Origin: Candidatus Omnitrophota bacterium
Lineage (GTDB): Bacteria; Omnitrophota; Gorgyraeia; Zapsychrales; Zapsychraceae
Assembly (NCBI GenBank): GCA_023136835.1
Contig: JAGLQN010000107.1
Coordinates: forward strand, 1 to 38,225
Length of the DNA: 38,225 nucleotides
Reading direction: 5' to 3'
Shown here: piece after piece, positions 2,301-35,337 of the stretch
Layout of the letters: each line of letters opens with the position of its first letter
Position numbering within the stretch: the stretch's first letter is position 1
Notes under the pieces: generated by a model
What the model was told of the DNA's origin: nothing
Database searches by the model: none
Seen by the model: the letters and a program-made list of their open reading frames with translations, nothing else
Made by a program: the position numbers and the translations under genes

Positions 2301-2438
2301 ATGGAAATTATCGGATATTACGTCATGCTTGGCCTTGGTGCTGGTGCAGTTGGTACTGTTGTCGGCCCGTCAAGAACAGCAAAAATCGTGGGTTTTTGTG
2401 GTGTTCTTTTACTTGTTTTCGCGCATAAAATCCTATGA
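2301..2438 (+). CDS. Small two-segment membrane protein, 45 aa
   Basis: ATG at 2301 follows GAGGGAGAGAG. The peptide has two hydrophobic stretches (YYVMLGLGAGAVGTVVG and IVGFCGVLLLVFAHKIL) joined by PSRTAK, so it is a predicted hairpin membrane protein. Its TGA overlaps the helicase ATG (ATGA), so translation is coupled to helicase. Function not recognised. Confidence 0.6.
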   Translation: MEIIGYYVMLGLGAGAVGTVVGPSRTAKIVGFCGVLLLVFAHKIL

Positions 2439-3808
2439 AAGACTTACCGCCACATAATCTACAAGCGGAGCAGACCCTCTTAGGCGCAATTCTAACGGAT
2501 AATGAAGTTATGGAACGGGTCGCTGAGTACCTTCTCCCGCATCATTTCGCCATGCCAGAACACGGCATATTATACGACAAATGCAAGCAACTAATTGACG
2601 AAAATCAAACCGCTAATACCATAACCCTAGCCGCCTCATTGGCTGATGAACTCCCCACTGTTGGCGGTGTAGAATACCTTGCACAACTTATGGGGTCAGC
2701 CGTTACCATTATCAATTCCGGCGAATATGGGCGGATAATCTACGACCTTGCCCAAAAACGCGAACTCATTCACCTATCCGAGTATATCGCAGAATCAACG
2801 AGAACACAAGCTGAACATTCAGAGATTATCGAAACGGTTGAGCGCGAACTAACCGCCCTGACTGACGACAATTCGCATGATGTTAGCACCCCCAAAAGCC
2901 AGATGGGGTTGGCAATAGCTAATATTGAAGCAGCTTTCAATGGTGACATTCCTCCGGGTCAAGAAACTGGCTTGACTGACCTAGACAACATATTAAGCAG
3001 ATTGCGCGATGGAAGTGTGTATGTTATCGGTGCTAGACCATCAATGGGTAAATCAGTACTTGCCTTGCAAATAGCCGAGAAAATATCCGAAACAAAACCA
3101 GTTTCCTTTTTTAGCTTGGAGATGCCAGCAGAAGAATTACAGGAACGGCGCATTTCAACCCATGCCAATATCAGTTACGAGGCCTTGCGGGCTGGGACAA
3201 TAACCTCAGACGAAATGAAACGTTCTGTGGAATCTTCCAATATTTTAGAGCAAAAACCTATGTTTGTCAACGATAAACCGGGGGTATCCGTTGAATATAT
3301 CCGCCGCCATGCTCGTAGGCAAATGCGTAAAACTGGTGTCAGGGCAGTGTTTATTGACTACCTGCAACTCATGTCTGGCGATGGTTTTAATCGGGTTGAT
3401 ATCATAGGCAACATTACTCGTGGATTAAAGACACTCGCCAAGGAGCTACGTTGTCCTGTGGTGGCTCTCAGCCAACTTAACAGGGGGGTAGAGGGCCGAG
3501 ATAGCCAAGTCCCTAGGATGTCGGATTTGAGGGAATCAGGCGATATCGAACAGGACGCAGATGTAATCGTGTTTATACATCGAGAAGAACAAAGCCTTAA
3601 TCAAAGGAAGCTGGCCATGAGAGAGGGCGAAACCACGGACAGTTTCAACAAACGACTTGACGGTCACGCCAACATGATAGCCGAGGCAAAAGGACTTGCA
3701 GACCTAATCATAGCCAAGAACCGCCAAGGCATTACAGGAATGATTGAATGTGGGTTTGATGGGGCGCATATGAAATTTACGAACATAGCACATACAGGAG
3801 AAAGATGA
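2435..3808 (+). CDS. dnaB: Replicative DNA helicase, DnaB family
   Basis: A 457-residue protein of usual DnaB length. The N-terminal domain (PPHNLQAEQTLLGAIL) matches the DnaB N-domain. The RecA-like motor has Walker A GARPSMGKS at about 199-207, SLEMP at 227-231, Walker B with D308 in AVFIDYLQL, and the later LSQLNRG and MSDLRESGDIEQDAD motifs. It would load on the phage origin and unwind DNA 5'-3' as a hexamer. No separate helicase loader is obvious; the downstream replication protein may fill that role. ATGA overlap with the membrane gene upstream. Confidence 0.95.
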   Translation: MKDLPPHNLQAEQTLLGAILTDNEVMERVAEYLLPHHFAMPEHGILYDKCKQLIDENQTANTITLAASLADELPTVGGVEYLAQLMGSAVTIINSGEYGRIIYDLAQKRELIHLSEYIAESTRTQAEHSEIIETVERELTALTDDNSHDVSTPKSQMGLAIANIEAAFNGDIPPGQETGLTDLDNILSRLRDGSVYVIGARPSMGKSVLALQIAEKISETKPVSFFSLEMPAEELQERRISTHANISYEALRAGTITSDEMKRSVESSNILEQKPMFVNDKPGVSVEYIRRHARRQMRKTGVRAVFIDYLQLMSGDGFNRVDIIGNITRGLKTLAKELRCPVVALSQLNRGVEGRDSQVPRMSDLRESGDIEQDADVIVFIHREEQSLNQRKLAMREGETTDSFNKRLDGHANMIAEAKGLADLIIAKNRQGITGMIECGFDGAHMKFTNIAHTGER

Positions 3809-3879
3809 GTTATTTGGTCATATATGGGTACTATGAGTACCGATGGTAAAACAAAAATAAACCAGCCTTTTAATACCAC

Positions 3880-3907
3880 TTGACTAATACTAAAATAGGG
3901 ATAAAAT
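3880..3907 (+). promoter_or_regulatory. Promoter in the helicase-replication protein gap
   Basis: TTGACT (3880-3885), 16 bp, TAAAAT (3902-3907). The expected start point, about 3913-3915, coincides with the first base pair of the RNA stem at 3913. It would supply the replication gene and the small early genes past the upstream terminator. Confidence 0.6.
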
Positions 3908-3912
3908 AACCA

Positions 3913-3979
3913 CGTCCCCGGTCTAGAGCGTTGAACTATGCTCCACGCCGTTTTCCCTCCAGCGTGTGTACCGGGGACG
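3913..3979 (+). ncRNA. Three-way-junction RNA at the 5' end of a predicted transcript
   Basis: A perfect 10-bp stem CGTCCCCGGT (3913-3922) / ACCGGGGACG (3970-3979) encloses two hairpins: GAGC/GCTC (3926-3929, 3940-3943) and CACGC/GCGTG (3944-3948, 3962-3966). The hairpins touch each other, with three unpaired bases on each side of the closing stem. The second loop contains the pyrimidine run TTTTCCCTCC. It sits at the predicted transcription start, so it would be a leader element or small RNA. No known riboswitch core was recognised. Confidence 0.5.
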
Positions 3980-4027
3980 ACTTTATTAAATAAAACCCTT
4001 GCGGATAACTCCGTTTAATGGTACTAT

Positions 4028-4124
4028 TCAGCTCCAGCAGAGGTTTGCAAGCCTCGGCCATAATCGTTTCTCCTTCTCACGAGGGCCACGCTGGAGCTGA
4101 TTCACCCCGAGAAGGCGAGAAGGA
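4028..4124 (+). promoter_or_regulatory. Leader RNA with loop complementary to the replication gene's ribosome site
   Basis: A perfect 11-bp stem TCAGCTCCAGC (4028-4038) / GCTGGAGCTGA (4090-4100) encloses GAGG/CCTC (4040-4043, 4052-4055) and GGCC/GGCC (4056-4059, 4084-4087). The large loop of the second hairpin holds TCCTTCTC (4071-4078). This is exactly complementary to GAGAAGGA (4117-4124), the ribosome site 6 bases before the ATG at 4131. Seven bases also match GAGAAGG at 4109-4115. Pairing would form a pseudoknot that hides the ribosome site. Confidence 0.5.
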
Positions 4125-4130
4125 CTACCA

Positions 4131-4862
4131 ATGCCACGTATAAGAACCGTTAAACCCGATTTCTGGAAAAGTGAAGCCCTTAGTGAGCTTCCACCAGAAA
4201 CACATATGCTTGCTTGCGCCCTCCTGAATTACTCCGATGATGAAGGCTATTTCAATGCCAATCCTAGATTGGTAGCGGCTGAATGTTGCCCTCTCCGTGA
4301 GCTTTCAGTGAGCGTTCCAGACAGCCTCAATCACCTAGTAAAAATAGGCTACATTAGGCTAGGCATTGGCGAGGATGGTAAAGCCTATGGTCATATCATT
4401 AATTTTCTTGAACATCAATTTATCAATCGGCCTTCTGAAAGCAAAATCAGTGTGTTAGAGATTGTGTGGGATGTTACAAGCACAGCTCATGGAATACTCA
4501 CGGAGCCCTCCATGCTGGAAAGGAAAGGAAAGGAAAGGAAAGGAAAGGAACAGTCAAAGAAGGAATTTGATTTAGCTTTTGCAGACTTCTGGAGCCTATA
4601 CCTAAAAAAGGTTGGTAAAGGACAAGCAGAGAAAGCATTTAAGTCTTCTTTGAAGATCACTTCCTTAAATCAAATAATGGAAGGTCTTGCGCGATACAAC
4701 GAAGCCAACGCCACAACCGAACAGAAATATATCAAACACCCCGCAACATGGCTAAACGGTAAATGCTGGCTAGACGAATACGAAACAGCCCCGCAGATGC
4801 TATCAGCCAAGGAACAAAAAGATTTAATGACTAGAAAAATGGCAGAGAAAGGGTTAAACTAA
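4131..4862 (+). CDS. Replication initiation / helicase-loading type protein
   Basis: 243 residues. The N-terminus (MPRIRTVKPDFWKSEALSEL..., ALLNYSDDEGYF) is the winged-helix start typical of phage replication proteins. The C-terminal half (FWSLYLKKVGKGQAEKAF, YIKHPATWLNGKCWLDE) is a domain often found in phage O- or DnaD-like proteins. A low-complexity ERKGKERKGKEQ linker at about 129-141 joins them and is encoded by the GGAAA tract. Next to dnaB, it probably recognises the origin and/or loads helicase (inferred). Start fixed by GAGAAGGA at 6-base spacing. Confidence 0.75.
   Translation: MPRIRTVKPDFWKSEALSELPPETHMLACALLNYSDDEGYFNANPRLVAAECCPLRELSVSVPDSLNHLVKIGYIRLGIGEDGKAYGHIINFLEHQFINRPSESKISVLEIVWDVTSTAHGILTEPSMLERKGKERKGKEQSKKEFDLAFADFWSLYLKKVGKGQAEKAFKSSLKITSLNQIMEGLARYNEANATTEQKYIKHPATWLNGKCWLDEYETAPQMLSAKEQKDLMTRKMAEKGLN
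4517..4550 (+). repeat. GGAAA pentanucleotide tract inside the replication gene
   Basis: 34 bases, 6.8 perfect copies of GGAAA, in the linker of the replication protein. The unit is not a multiple of three, so gain or loss of one copy shifts the frame. Lambda-like phages carry origin iterons inside the equivalent gene, but these 5-mers are shorter than normal iterons. Confidence 0.9.
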
Positions 4863-5205: not shown

Positions 5206-5342
5206 TAACAGCATGGACACCTAATGGTCGCGACACCCTAGAAATCAACGGCCCGATAAACAAAAACCGCCTACTCGACACACCCTTGCATGACGAAAAA
5301 TCTGACCGCTGGAAAATCAAGGAGAAATCCAATGACAAGTGA
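5202..5342 (+). CDS. Hypothetical protein, 46 aa
   Basis: ATGATAA junction: the ATG at 5202 overlaps the TGA of the preceding gene, with AAAGGGAAAAAC just upstream. The peptide starts MITAWTPNGRDTLEINGPIN and ends in a basic tail (DRWKIKEKSNDK). It overlaps the next gene by 11 bases. Hydrophilic; no recognised motif. Confidence 0.5.
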   Translation: MITAWTPNGRDTLEINGPINKNRLLDTPLHDEKSDRWKIKEKSNDK

Positions 5343-7831: not shown

Positions 7832-9134
7832 GATACCACATAACTGGAATCCAAGGGATTATCAACTTCCCTTTTGGAAGTATATGGAACAGGGCGGCAA
7901 ACGTGCCGTTCTTGTTTGGCCTCGAAGGCATGGCAAAGATGATGTGTGTTTACACTACCTCGCTACTGCCGCATTACAGAAAGCCGCAACCTATTGGTAT
8001 ATGCTCCCAGAGGCCGCACAGGCCCGCAAGGCCATTTGGAAGGCCATTAACCCCCATACTGGCATAAAGCGAATAGACGAGGCATTTCCCCCTGCTATCG
8101 TGGCTAAGAAAAACGACCAAGAGATGTATATAGAGCTGATTAACGGTGCATCCATCCAGATCGTAGGCTCTGATAACTATAACAGCCTTGTGGGTTCCCC
8201 ACCTTTGGGCGTTGTGTTCTCTGAATGGGCCTTGGCTAACCCTAATGCTTGGGCTTATTTACGTCCTATCTTGAGGGAAAACGGCGGATGGGCTGTGTTT
8301 AATGGAACGCCCCGTGGTCGCAATCATCATTCAAAGATGTTTGAAGCTGGTCTGACTGATGATGAATGGTTTAGCGAGCGCCTTACATTCGAGGATGCCG
8401 ATGTATTCACCAACGAACAAATGGACAAGGAACGAAAGGAGTACATACGGGAACACGGCATAGACCAAGGCGTTGCCCTGTTCGAGCAAGAATACCTATG
8501 CAGTTTTGATGCCGCTATCCTTGGTGCTTACTATTCCGGAGAGATGGCCAAAGCCTTGAAGGGTGGCCGGATAACCAAAGTACCGCACGATAACGGCAAG
8601 GTTGTCCATACCATGTGGGACTTGGGGAGGTCAGATAGAACGGTTGTCTGGTTCTTCCAGATAGTCGGCACCACTTGGCATATTATAGGCTGTCTTGCTA
8701 GCAGCGGTGTGAACATAGATTGGTTCATAACAGAGATGGACAAAAAGAACTGGAATTGGGGGACTGATTACATACCTCACGATGGTAGCCATGAACGCCT
8801 TGGCATGGATAAGAGCATTGACGGTCAGATGCGGGACTTAGGACGAAAAGATGTGGTGGTTGTTAAATCACCACCCGGCAGCGTACAGGTGGGCATTAAC
8901 GAGGTACGCAAGCAGCTTAACCTTTGCTGGTTTGACGAGGATGAGTGTAAGATGGGTCTTGAAGCCATGCGTATGTACCGTAAAGGATGGGATGATACGA
9001 ACAAGGTATTCAGGGATAAGCCTTTGCATGATTGGACTTCTGACTATGCTGACGCCTTTAGAACCGGGGTTATGGGCTATCAGGAGGAAATAAGTGCAGC
9101 CCCATTAGATTATAATGATGCTGGAATAGTGTAG
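7818..9134 (+). CDS. terL: Terminase large subunit
   Basis: 438 residues. The ATPase has a deviant Walker A WPRRHGKD (34-41), Walker B VVFSE (132-136, catalytic E136) and the coupling motif FNGTPRG (161-167). The RNase H-like nuclease follows with acidic residues D268 (MWDLGRSD), D322 (IPHDGSHERLG) and D409/D412 (DYADAFRTG). It translocates DNA into proheads and cuts concatemers. The RRHGKD form of the P-loop is common in P22/Sf6-like and related terminases. Confidence 0.93.
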   Translation: MSKIEIPHNWNPRDYQLPFWKYMEQGGKRAVLVWPRRHGKDDVCLHYLATAALQKAATYWYMLPEAAQARKAIWKAINPHTGIKRIDEAFPPAIVAKKNDQEMYIELINGASIQIVGSDNYNSLVGSPPLGVVFSEWALANPNAWAYLRPILRENGGWAVFNGTPRGRNHHSKMFEAGLTDDEWFSERLTFEDADVFTNEQMDKERKEYIREHGIDQGVALFEQEYLCSFDAAILGAYYSGEMAKALKGGRITKVPHDNGKVVHTMWDLGRSDRTVVWFFQIVGTTWHIIGCLASSGVNIDWFITEMDKKNWNWGTDYIPHDGSHERLGMDKSIDGQMRDLGRKDVVVVKSPPGSVQVGINEVRKQLNLCWFDEDECKMGLEAMRMYRKGWDDTNKVFRDKPLHDWTSDYADAFRTGVMGYQEEISAAPLDYNDAGIV

Positions 9135-14348: not shown

Positions 14349-15326
14349 ATGGAAGTCAACACGGCCCCGGCCACTGATAACCAACCAATGTCGCAAGACG
14401 CGGCTGCGGAACATCTTGCATCACTCTTGGTAGACAGCCCTGCTGCACCTACCACACCCGATAGCGAGGAACCCACAGAAGAACTGGAAGCCACGGAAGT
14501 TACCGAAGCCGAAGGAACCGAAGTGGAATTGGATGCTGTTTCAGACGAAGAACCAGCAGACGAGTATGAAGCAGAGGCAGTAGCAGCCGATGAAGCCGAG
14601 GCATCTGATTACATCGAAGTAGATGGCGAACAGATTACCCTTGATGAAGTCGGCAAAAGCTATATGCGCCAAGCTGATTACACCCAAAAGACGCAAGAAC
14701 TGGCTGAACAGCGTAAAGCTTTTGAGGCAGAACAAACGTCTATCGCACAAGAGCGCGAACACCTAAAGCAAATGCTTGAGTTTGCGGGAAAGAATAGTGA
14801 ACCTGAACCCGATTGGGTACAGCTTGCCACTGATGACCCGCTTGAGTACACACGGCAAAGAGCAATCTTTGATGCAAAGAAAGCTGAAAACGAGGTGGCC
14901 ACAGCAGAACGTGACCGTCTAAATCAGATAGAAGCGCAGCAAAGACAGGCTAATGCAGCTAAATATGTTGAAGAACAGAAGGACATACTGAGTGACACAA
15001 TACCCGAGCTAAAGGGTGAAACAGGTCAACAGTACCGTTCCGATATTCTCACTTACATGGCTAATTGTGGTTGGTCTAAAGATGAAATCGGCCAAATGTA
15101 CGACTCACGCGCAGTTATCGCCATTGACAAAGCTCGCAAATACGATGCCCTAACTAATAAAGGCAAAGTGGTAGCGAAGAAAGTCAAGGGTGTGCCGAAG
15201 GTGGTAAAACCCGGTGTCCAAACGTCCAAGAAGGCCAAAATGGTTACTTCGCGTAAAAAGGCACAGGCCCGCGCTCGTCAATCGGGAAGCGTTGATGATG
15301 CTGTTGCAGCATTGCTGGCGCTTTAG
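14349..15326 (+). CDS. Head scaffolding protein (probable)
   Basis: 325 residues. The first 90 or so are very acidic and disordered (EEPTEELEATEVTEAEGTE). A heptad-like coiled coil follows (YTQKTQELAEQRKAFEAEQ), and the C-terminus is strongly basic (KVVAKKVKGVPKVVKPGVQTS, ARARQSGS). An acidic start, coiled middle and basic C-terminal capsid-binding tail, directly before the capsid gene, are typical of phage scaffolds. Start behind CTAAGGAG. Confidence 0.75.
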   Translation: MEVNTAPATDNQPMSQDAAAEHLASLLVDSPAAPTTPDSEEPTEELEATEVTEAEGTEVELDAVSDEEPADEYEAEAVAADEAEASDYIEVDGEQITLDEVGKSYMRQADYTQKTQELAEQRKAFEAEQTSIAQEREHLKQMLEFAGKNSEPEPDWVQLATDDPLEYTRQRAIFDAKKAENEVATAERDRLNQIEAQQRQANAAKYVEEQKDILSDTIPELKGETGQQYRSDILTYMANCGWSKDEIGQMYDSRAVIAIDKARKYDALTNKGKVVAKKVKGVPKVVKPGVQTSKKAKMVTSRKKAQARARQSGSVDDAVAALLAL

Positions 15327-32664: not shown

Positions 32665-32786
32665 AAACCCTCGTTTGCGTTAATCAAATAATGTTGGTTT
32701 GTTTATGGGTTCATCCCACCCCAACCAAAGACCAAAAGTAAGTCCGACAACAAAAGCTAAAAATAATTCCATCGTTCTGCCCTCGT
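32665..32786. repeat. Direct repeat, copy 1 (122 bp)
   Basis: Identical over 122 bp to 34011-34132. It spans an entire 30-residue gene, its ribosome site and the junction to the next gene. The ends coincide with gene boundaries. Confidence 0.97.
32680..32772 (-). CDS. 30-residue membrane peptide, copy A
   Basis: Begins MELFLAFVVGLTFGLWLGW, one hydrophobic helix, then a polar tail DEPINKPTLFD. The start is preceded by ACGAGGGCAGAACG. Exactly duplicated at 34026-34118 including flanks. Could interact with the membrane or a membrane enzyme; function unknown. Confidence 0.6.
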   Translation of the reverse strand: MELFLAFVVGLTFGLWLGWDEPINKPTLFD

Positions 32787-34010: not shown

Positions 34011-34132
34011 AAACCCTCGTTTGCGTTAATCAAATAATGTTGGTTTGTTTATGGGTTCATCCCACCCCAACCAAAGACCAAAAGTAAGTCCGACAACAAA
34101 AGCTAAAAATAATTCCATCGTTCTGCCCTCGT
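34011..34132. repeat. Direct repeat, copy 2 (122 bp)
   Basis: Perfect copy of 32665-32786, 1346 bp away in the same orientation. Its right end abuts the recombinase stop codon (34133-34135) exactly. Confidence 0.97.
34026..34118 (-). CDS. 30-residue membrane peptide, copy B
   Basis: Residue-for-residue identical to the peptide at 32680-32772, with the same ribosome site. It directly follows the serine recombinase gene, so it is probably cotranscribed with it from the promoter at 34812-34840. Zero divergence points to a recent duplication. Confidence 0.6.
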   Translation of the reverse strand: MELFLAFVVGLTFGLWLGWDEPINKPTLFD

Positions 34133-34753
34133 TTAATTGTTGATAACTCTAGCTTGTCTTTCTGCTTTTCGTAATGCTTTGACTCTTACTTCCTCGCCTT
34201 CACGTTTCAGCGCCCTGTAAATAGCGGCACGACTTACCTTTACTGTGTCTGCTGCTTCCTGCATAGTCACCGTAGGATCGCCCAGCATGGCCTTTACAGC
34301 CTTTAGCATAGCTGGTGTTACCTTGGGTTTCCTACCGCCTCTGTGGCCCCTTGCGCGGGCCGCCTTAAGGCCAGCCTTGGTTCGCTCGCTGATAAGATTT
34401 CTTTCAAATTCTGCAAAGGCCGCCAGCATATGAAAAACCATTTTCCCGGCTGCTGTGGTGGTATCAATGGCTTCTGACAGACTTTTGAAGTCCACGCCCC
34501 TGGCTTCCAAATCAACCATTATCTTGATAAGTTCCGGCACACTACGGCCAAGGCGGTCAAGCCGCCACACAATCAAGGTATCGCCTTCCCGCATTGCCTT
34601 AAGACACTCAATTAGTTGTGGCCTCTGGGTTTTAACTCCAGAAACGTGTTCATGGTATATCTGTTCGTTTGCAACGCCAGCTTTGTTTAAAGCGTCTGTT
34701 TGCAAATTAAGCAGTTGGTCTTCTGTGGATACTCTGGCGTAGCCAAATAACAT
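34133..34753 (-). CDS. Serine recombinase, resolvase/invertase type
   Basis: 206 residues. YARVSTEDQ with nucleophile Ser9, SGVKTQRPQL, and WRLDRLGRS (Arg64, Arg67, Arg70) form the catalytic domain. The E helix is FAEFERNLISERTKAGLKAA, and the C-terminal HTH is DPTVTMQEAADTVKVSRAAIYRAL. The size is that of small resolvase/invertases, not large phage integrases. It could resolve dimers, invert a segment or integrate; no site pair is proven. Start behind CAGAGGGAAACG. Confidence 0.9.
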   Translation of the reverse strand: MLFGYARVSTEDQLLNLQTDALNKAGVANEQIYHEHVSGVKTQRPQLIECLKAMREGDTLIVWRLDRLGRSVPELIKIMVDLEARGVDFKSLSEAIDTTTAAGKMVFHMLAAFAEFERNLISERTKAGLKAARARGHRGGRKPKVTPAMLKAVKAMLGDPTVTMQEAADTVKVSRAAIYRALKREGEEVRVKALRKAERQARVINN

Positions 34754-34904: not shown

Positions 34905-34926
34905 TAGGCATCAGGGGAAATGCCTA
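34905..34926 (-). terminator. Hairpin at the end of the LexA-like gene
   Basis: TAGGCAT / ATGCCTA, perfect 7 bp with an 8-base loop, includes the LexA-like stop codon. Next to it CCCCGGCC can pair with GGTCGGGG across about 25 bases (one G-U). Together they could end or attenuate the upstream leftward transcript, though no long U run follows. Confidence 0.4.
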
Positions 34927-35337
34927 ATTTGCGTGTGGTATAAATCTTGGATTGCCAGACTTGGGGTAAACCATCATATCCGGTTCGTCAAATCTGCGCC
35001 CCTTTAGCACATCATCCCACTGCGGGGGCTCGGGGTTATAGCCGTAGTCTCTCGCCACAACGGATATGTATTCTTTCCTGCCAAACTCGATTTCCTCAAT
35101 TTCACGCCTTAACGCTTGGCCTAATGTCCGCCATTCGCCCAGCAAAACGATTGAGCGCAGCTTTCTAGGTTCCCACGTTATATGGCCAGATTCGCGCATA
35201 TTGCCCAAGTGAATGCTTACAGTCTTGGAGTTGGTTAGGCCAACGCCATCGGCTATTTCGCGGTATGTCGGGCTTATGCCGTTTTCCCTGATATATTCTT
35301 TCAGAAACTCGAATATCTGTTCTTGTCTTGGTGTCAT
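34924..35337 (-). CDS. LexA-type winged-helix DNA-binding protein without protease domain
   Basis: 137 residues. The first 65 (MTPRQEQIFEFLKEYIRENG, SPTYREIADGVGLTNSKTVS) are the LexA N-terminal winged helix. The Ser-Lys autoprotease domain is absent, replaced by a different tail (WRTLGQALRREIEEIEFGRK, YNPEPPQWDDVLKGRRFDEP). It may regulate the recombination operon or bind host LexA boxes, but could not be SOS-cleaved in the usual way. Behind CGAGGGAATG. Confidence 0.8.
   Translation of the reverse strand: MTPRQEQIFEFLKEYIRENGISPTYREIADGVGLTNSKTVSIHLGNMRESGHITWEPRKLRSIVLLGEWRTLGQALRREIEEIEFGRKEYISVVARDYGYNPEPPQWDDVLKGRRFDEPDMMVYPKSGNPRFIPHAN

Follow-up and report, generated by a model that had tools for sequence, protein, structure and literature searches.

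A predicted C4-like RNA module ahead of the replication initiator gene of a phage in a Candidatus Omnitrophota assembly

The stretch of DNA that we analysed (the window, 38,225 nucleotides) is a 38-kb contig, one of 573 in its assembly, and carries the genes of an uncultured phage. The set includes a DnaB-like helicase, a replication initiator, a terminase, a portal and a major head protein. The portal is only ~37% identical to those of the nearest phages, and therefore the phage has no close relative among named phages. The DnaB-like replicative helicase gene (dnaB) occupies 2435–3808 on the plus strand. It is followed on the same strand by rep (4131–4862), which encodes a phage replication initiation protein of 243 residues with matches to phrog_270 (E 4e-31), phrog_16167 and phrog_1408. 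The ATG at 4131 is the correct start of rep; homologues likewise open with M(A)RIRT. The two genes are separated by a gap of 322 bases, from the dnaB end at 3808 to the rep start at 4131, with no convincing gene in it. Small open reading frames in this leader are all short, at most 41 residues on the plus strand, and one of them overlaps rep. Within the rep gene itself, GGAAA is repeated 6.8 times (window 4517–4550), a candidate origin feature such as is found inside other phage initiator genes. Two further features lie far downstream. A 25-nt tandem pair (CAACAAAAGACCAAAAATAAGTCCGA) occurs in two copies 1.3 kb apart (window 32722–32770 and 34068–34116), one of which adjoins a serine recombinase gene (34133–34753, minus strand), and the copies are possibly recombination sites of this recombinase. 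A LexA-like DNA-binding domain with no recognised peptidase domain is encoded at window 34924–35337 on the minus strand, in a leftward operon with SSB and Rad52-like genes.

The leader region is predicted to be highly structured, with a folding energy of −84.4 kcal/mol against −67.3 ± 4.3 kcal/mol in shuffles (z = −4.0). Nine inverted repeats with arms of at least 10 nt are present in the whole window, and two of them fall in the dnaB–rep gap: H1 at 3913–3979 and H2 at 4028–4100. A sigma-70-like promoter sequence, TTGACT-16-TAAAAT, lies on the plus strand at 3880–3907, directly before H1, and matches 10 of 12 consensus positions. As 0.9 such sites are expected in the region by chance, its placement just before H1 is suggestive only. 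A second candidate promoter before H2 (TTGCGG-TACTAT) was dropped with just 7 of 12 matches, and a consensus scan of 3780–4300 found no promoter-like site on the minus strand. There is no visible terminator after H1 or H2 and no terminator or processing signal that would free H2.

H2 lies on the plus strand and is predicted to fold into three stems, with a minimum free energy of −35.0 kcal/mol for 4025–4104. Its stem P1 is a perfect 11-bp helix (4028–4038/4090–4100, TCAGCTCCAGC/GCTGGAGCTGA). The initial annotation had described a large loop under this stem; the stem is as described, but its interior is not a plain loop and holds two hairpins. P2 is a short 6-bp hairpin (4040–4055) with arms 4040–4045 and 4050–4055. 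P3 is formed by 4056–4059/4084–4087 and 4064–4067/4079–4082 and closes an apical loop of 11 nt (4068–4078). The last 8 nt of this loop are the octamer TCCTTCTC (4071–4078), which is unpaired with probabilities of 0.83–1.0 in the predicted ensemble. It is the exact reverse complement of GAGAAGGA (4117–4124), the Shine-Dalgarno (SD) sequence of rep, which ends 6 nt before the ATG at 4131. A first copy of the target, GAGAAGG at 4109–4115, is half of an 8-nt direct repeat (CGAGAAGG, two copies) and gives a 7-nt match to the octamer; in this second register, 9 of 10 positions are complementary to 4069–4078. Both matches had been proposed before, and their letters and coordinates proved correct on checking. 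The rep ribosome site begins 16 nt beyond H2, and the octamer loop and the SD are 38 nt apart on one transcript.

H1, just upstream on the same strand, is also predicted to form three stems. Its P1 has 10 bp (3913–3922/3970–3979), P2 pairs 3926–3931 with 3938–3943, and P3 starts at 3945 and presents a pyrimidine-rich loop, TTCCCTCC, at 3953–3960. The segment CTCCAGCGTG (3957–3966) in H1 is a perfect 10-nt complement of CACGCTGGAG (4087–4096) in H2 (P = 0.003 against shuffles), where it spans the junction and part of the 3′ strand of stem P1. This segment could act as a target site upstream of an antisense module, or as a competitor of the H2 stem P1. Homology of H1 and H2 was considered and rejected, as the alignment score was not significant (P = 0.28). 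When the two P1 stems are aligned, 5 of 10 pairs are changed on both sides with pairing kept, as in 14 of 500 shuffles; this comparison holds two sequences, each picked for its perfect stem, and is no proof by itself. The H1 loop (window 3949–3961) also matches, over 7–8 nt, SDs of the GAGGGAA type ahead of several leftward-operon genes (starts 34133, 34924 and 35341, minus strand), and over 8 nt the SD of a phosphoesterase gene (start 27845).

The computed energy of the octamer:SD helix is −11.0 kcal/mol, compared with −8.6 kcal/mol for the b′:b2 helix of the C4 RNA of phage P1. An anti-SD core paired with the rep SD gives −5.4 kcal/mol; this is a generic core from which the host's own tail may differ, and the host 16S was not found in the assembly. 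It is thus thermodynamically reasonable for the loop to pair with the rep SD, and such pairing is still the best reading of how the initiator could be repressed, as the initial annotation had proposed. We give about even odds, from the modelled fold and by analogy, to H2 being an antisense module of C4 type that holds down translation of the replication initiator.

The transcription, processing, repression and biological role that we infer would run as follows. The 322-nt gap would encode a structured leader RNA, transcribed from the site at 3880–3907. Stem P1 of H2 would present the two hairpins, with the 8 anti-SD nucleotides held in the P3 loop. This loop would pair with GAGAAGGA, or in the second register with GAGAAGG, so that ribosome binding is blocked and less Rep is made. 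In trans, H2 might be cut from the transcript as C4 is, and a resident phage could then silence an incoming one or replication could be capped. In cis, the H2 loop and the rep SD would form a pseudoknot. H1, which has a 10-nt complement to H2, is probably a modulator of it. Repression of this kind might serve copy-number or timing control, as also put forward earlier. A more elaborate form is improbable in our estimate: a two-tier RNA immunity or copy-control system on the initiator, in which H2 blocks Rep translation and H1, as an anti-antisense, pairs with the H2 stem and releases Rep, with H2 unrelated or only distantly related to C4 by sequence.

Cis and trans action of the proposed antisense module cannot be told apart from the sequence alone. 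A purely intramolecular mechanism, in which the H2 loop and the rep SD, both in the rep mRNA, form a pseudoknot that a protein, a ligand or ribosome traffic might alter, and no free antisense RNA is made, is unlikely but credible. It agrees with the short distance between loop and SD on one transcript and with the lack of a visible processing signal. Forcing the octamer:SD helix into a nested fold gives −65.6 versus −79.7 kcal/mol, a cost of about 14 kcal/mol, and P1 must open; pairing therefore needs P1 intact and in cis would likely occur only as a pseudoknot. However, 8 bp within an 11-nt loop is tight for such a pseudoknot, and the mechanism leaves both the C4-type layout and the second element H1 unexplained.

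The bare match between octamer and SD is only mildly unusual. A complement of at least 8 nt arises in dinucleotide-shuffled interiors with P = 0.03, and one to the rep SD with P = 0.0155 when pyrimidine-rich 14-mers from this phage stand in for the loop and P = 0.018 for shuffled loops. Any pyrimidine-rich loop has a 1.5% chance of matching the rep SD over at least 8 nt and a 4% chance over at least 7 nt. These numbers leave some room for the hairpins to serve otherwise, whether in transcription antitermination like the put RNAs of HK022, in stabilising the RNA or as a DNA element of the replication origin, the loop–SD match being a by-product of a pyrimidine-rich loop. H1 stands immediately behind the promoter-like site, helicase and initiator genes flank the region, and both strands of the leader fold about equally well, all of which would suit this explanation. 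We nevertheless judge it unlikely, by a shade more than the purely intramolecular pseudoknot. The leader contains no iteron-like repeats, so far as we find, and a better candidate for an origin feature is the GGAAA array within rep. Moreover, the octamer match by itself is commoner than the complete layout. We described this layout by a composite of stem, two hairpins, unpaired octamer, SD and start codon, and scanned both strands of shuffled sequences. The layout appears in 8 of 800 dinucleotide-shuffled windows, and in 1 of 800 at comparable stability (≤ −30 kcal/mol); we devised the descriptor with H2 already in view, and such rarity figures somewhat overstate the surprise. On 3.13 Mb of other loci it returned two weak, AT-rich cases. 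It recovers H2 and the C4 octamer of phage P1, in the latter reaching the right octamer via an overlapping stem.

Among 56 genes of the phage, rep is the only one with an SD complement of at least 8 nt in its own upstream region. The H2 loop also complements the SDs at 5332 (9 nt) and at 14349 and 16313 (8 nt each), so that it has complements of 8 nt or longer in 4 of 56 start regions, an excess over shuffled loops (P = 0.007); the loop is therefore anti-SD-like in general. The H1 loop reaches 2 of 56 start regions (P = 0.05). That H1 and H2 are multi-target small RNAs, with generic CU-rich anti-SD loops suited to many ribosome sites of the phage or the host, that of rep being just one, would account for these matches but is quite improbable, as neither element is followed by a terminator, both stand directly ahead of rep, and rep ranks first of 56 by duplex energy for the H2 loop, though only by 0.4 kcal/mol.

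No similar leader was found by rep, DnaB and portal scans of viral contigs or a rep scan of genome contigs, by blastn of phages and plasmids, or in 384 genomes of the class, and the leader seems private to this phage in the collections searched. The genes of 80 Rep homologues (46–68% identical at the N-terminus) almost all start directly behind the upstream open reading frame, with no leader. The homologues that do have gaps (L124, L138, L141/L143 and L167/L168) carry other structures, none of which was picked by the descriptor. L167/L168 have a pair of stable hairpins some 110 nt ahead of rep, with complementary 7-mers in the loops (GGACUAG and CUAGUCC); behind the second come a run of T and the SD of rep, an arrangement that might permit kissing-loop control. 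In the two related contigs L141 and L143, a three-stem hairpin lies 20–94 nt upstream of rep, followed by nine T right before the rep SD; the two differ in the loops while the stems are intact. In L015 (G000:C166, 413–490), a hairpin with a long GC-rich stem and a structured loop of about 45 nt is followed by TTTTT and lies upstream of genes leading to another rep-like gene of the same assembly.

If H2 does act as a C4-like module on the initiator, antisense control would bear directly on the commitment of the phage to replicate, and such an RNA may serve the phage as a brake on its own DNA replication. If H2 is independent of C4 in origin, a three-stem scaffold with an anti-SD loop would have evolved repeatedly; should H2 instead be a diverged C4, present models overlook members of this sort.

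Several known systems share part of this arrangement. IncI/IncB-type plasmids rely on a pseudoknot to activate repZ and make their antisense RNA from the opposite strand. As in those rep leaders, a structured leader here would govern translation of the initiator via loop pairing near the ribosome site, but it is the SD itself that would be covered, and the consensus scan revealed no promoter-like site on the opposite strand. The immunity CI RNA of phage P4 works by premature transcription termination. It resembles the present leader as an RNA with internal complementary segments ahead of replication genes, but it acts by termination rather than at a ribosome site, and no terminator is seen here. 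The put antiterminator RNAs of HK022 are likewise stem-loops, at the start of the early phage transcript, but have no link to an SD.

Phages P1 and P7 regulate an antirepressor operon through C4 antisense RNA, which in phage P1 belongs to the immunity system. In L197, our phage P1 control, C4 lies at 8344–8420, b2 at 8453–8460 and the icd ATG at 8471. The family model RF01695 recognises this RNA at 68.8 bits. Its fold has two hairpins on a single long stem, and the loop of the second hairpin, P3, ends with the 8 nt of b′ (TCACTAAC). Genuine C4 RNAs (RF01695) are present elsewhere in the genome in 5 of 49 sampled records with relatives of this Rep. Three of them (L198, L199 and L203) have a 9-nt complement in P3 reaching the SD of the next gene. 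In L202 the complement has 7 nt and is predicted to be partly base-paired. L201 has no complement of at least 7 nt at the b′ place. Five of the six C4 RNAs checked, phage P1 included, thus have a P3-hairpin complement of 7–9 nt to the SD region of the next gene; these complements lie mostly in open loops, with targets about 8–11 nt before the ATG.

H2 differs from C4 in several respects. Its stem P1 has 11 bp against about 17 bp in C4, and its target is the replication initiator and not the icd-ant operon. RF01695 gives no match in 3800–4200 at E ≤ 10 and none in the window at the gathering threshold. There is no a′/a2 pair: the octamer gives the sole complement of at least 7 nt that H2 has in the 110 nt following it. 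The a′ place, covered by 4087–4096, has its 10-nt complement upstream in H1 rather than in a downstream a2. A GGW motif at the 5′ end of P1 marks C4 for cutting by RNase P (PMC5320573); it is absent from H2, in which P1 begins with TCAGC. On paper, then, H2 could do the job of a C4 RNA, yet it is no recognisable member of the C4 family. The likeness lies in the layout. Both have three stems, a long P1 enclosing the hairpins P2 and P3, and in both the second-hairpin loop holds a complement of 7–9 nt to the SD of the gene that follows in the same transcript, a few nt ahead of the start codon; in H2 these are the 8 nt at the loop end, with the target 6 nt before the ATG. Both have a promoter upstream, here the promoter-like site at 3880–3907. 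In both, complements to the module also occur upstream of it, in H1 here and in a1/b1 in phage P1. As phage P1 has C4 target sites upstream of c4, the complement in H1 may be an analogue of a1/b1, or H1 may compete with stem P1 of H2. The initial annotation had likened the leader to the pseudoknots of some plasmid Rep genes; a C4-type module fits the anatomy better, because the octamer sits at the b′ place and the upstream element H1 can pair with the module.
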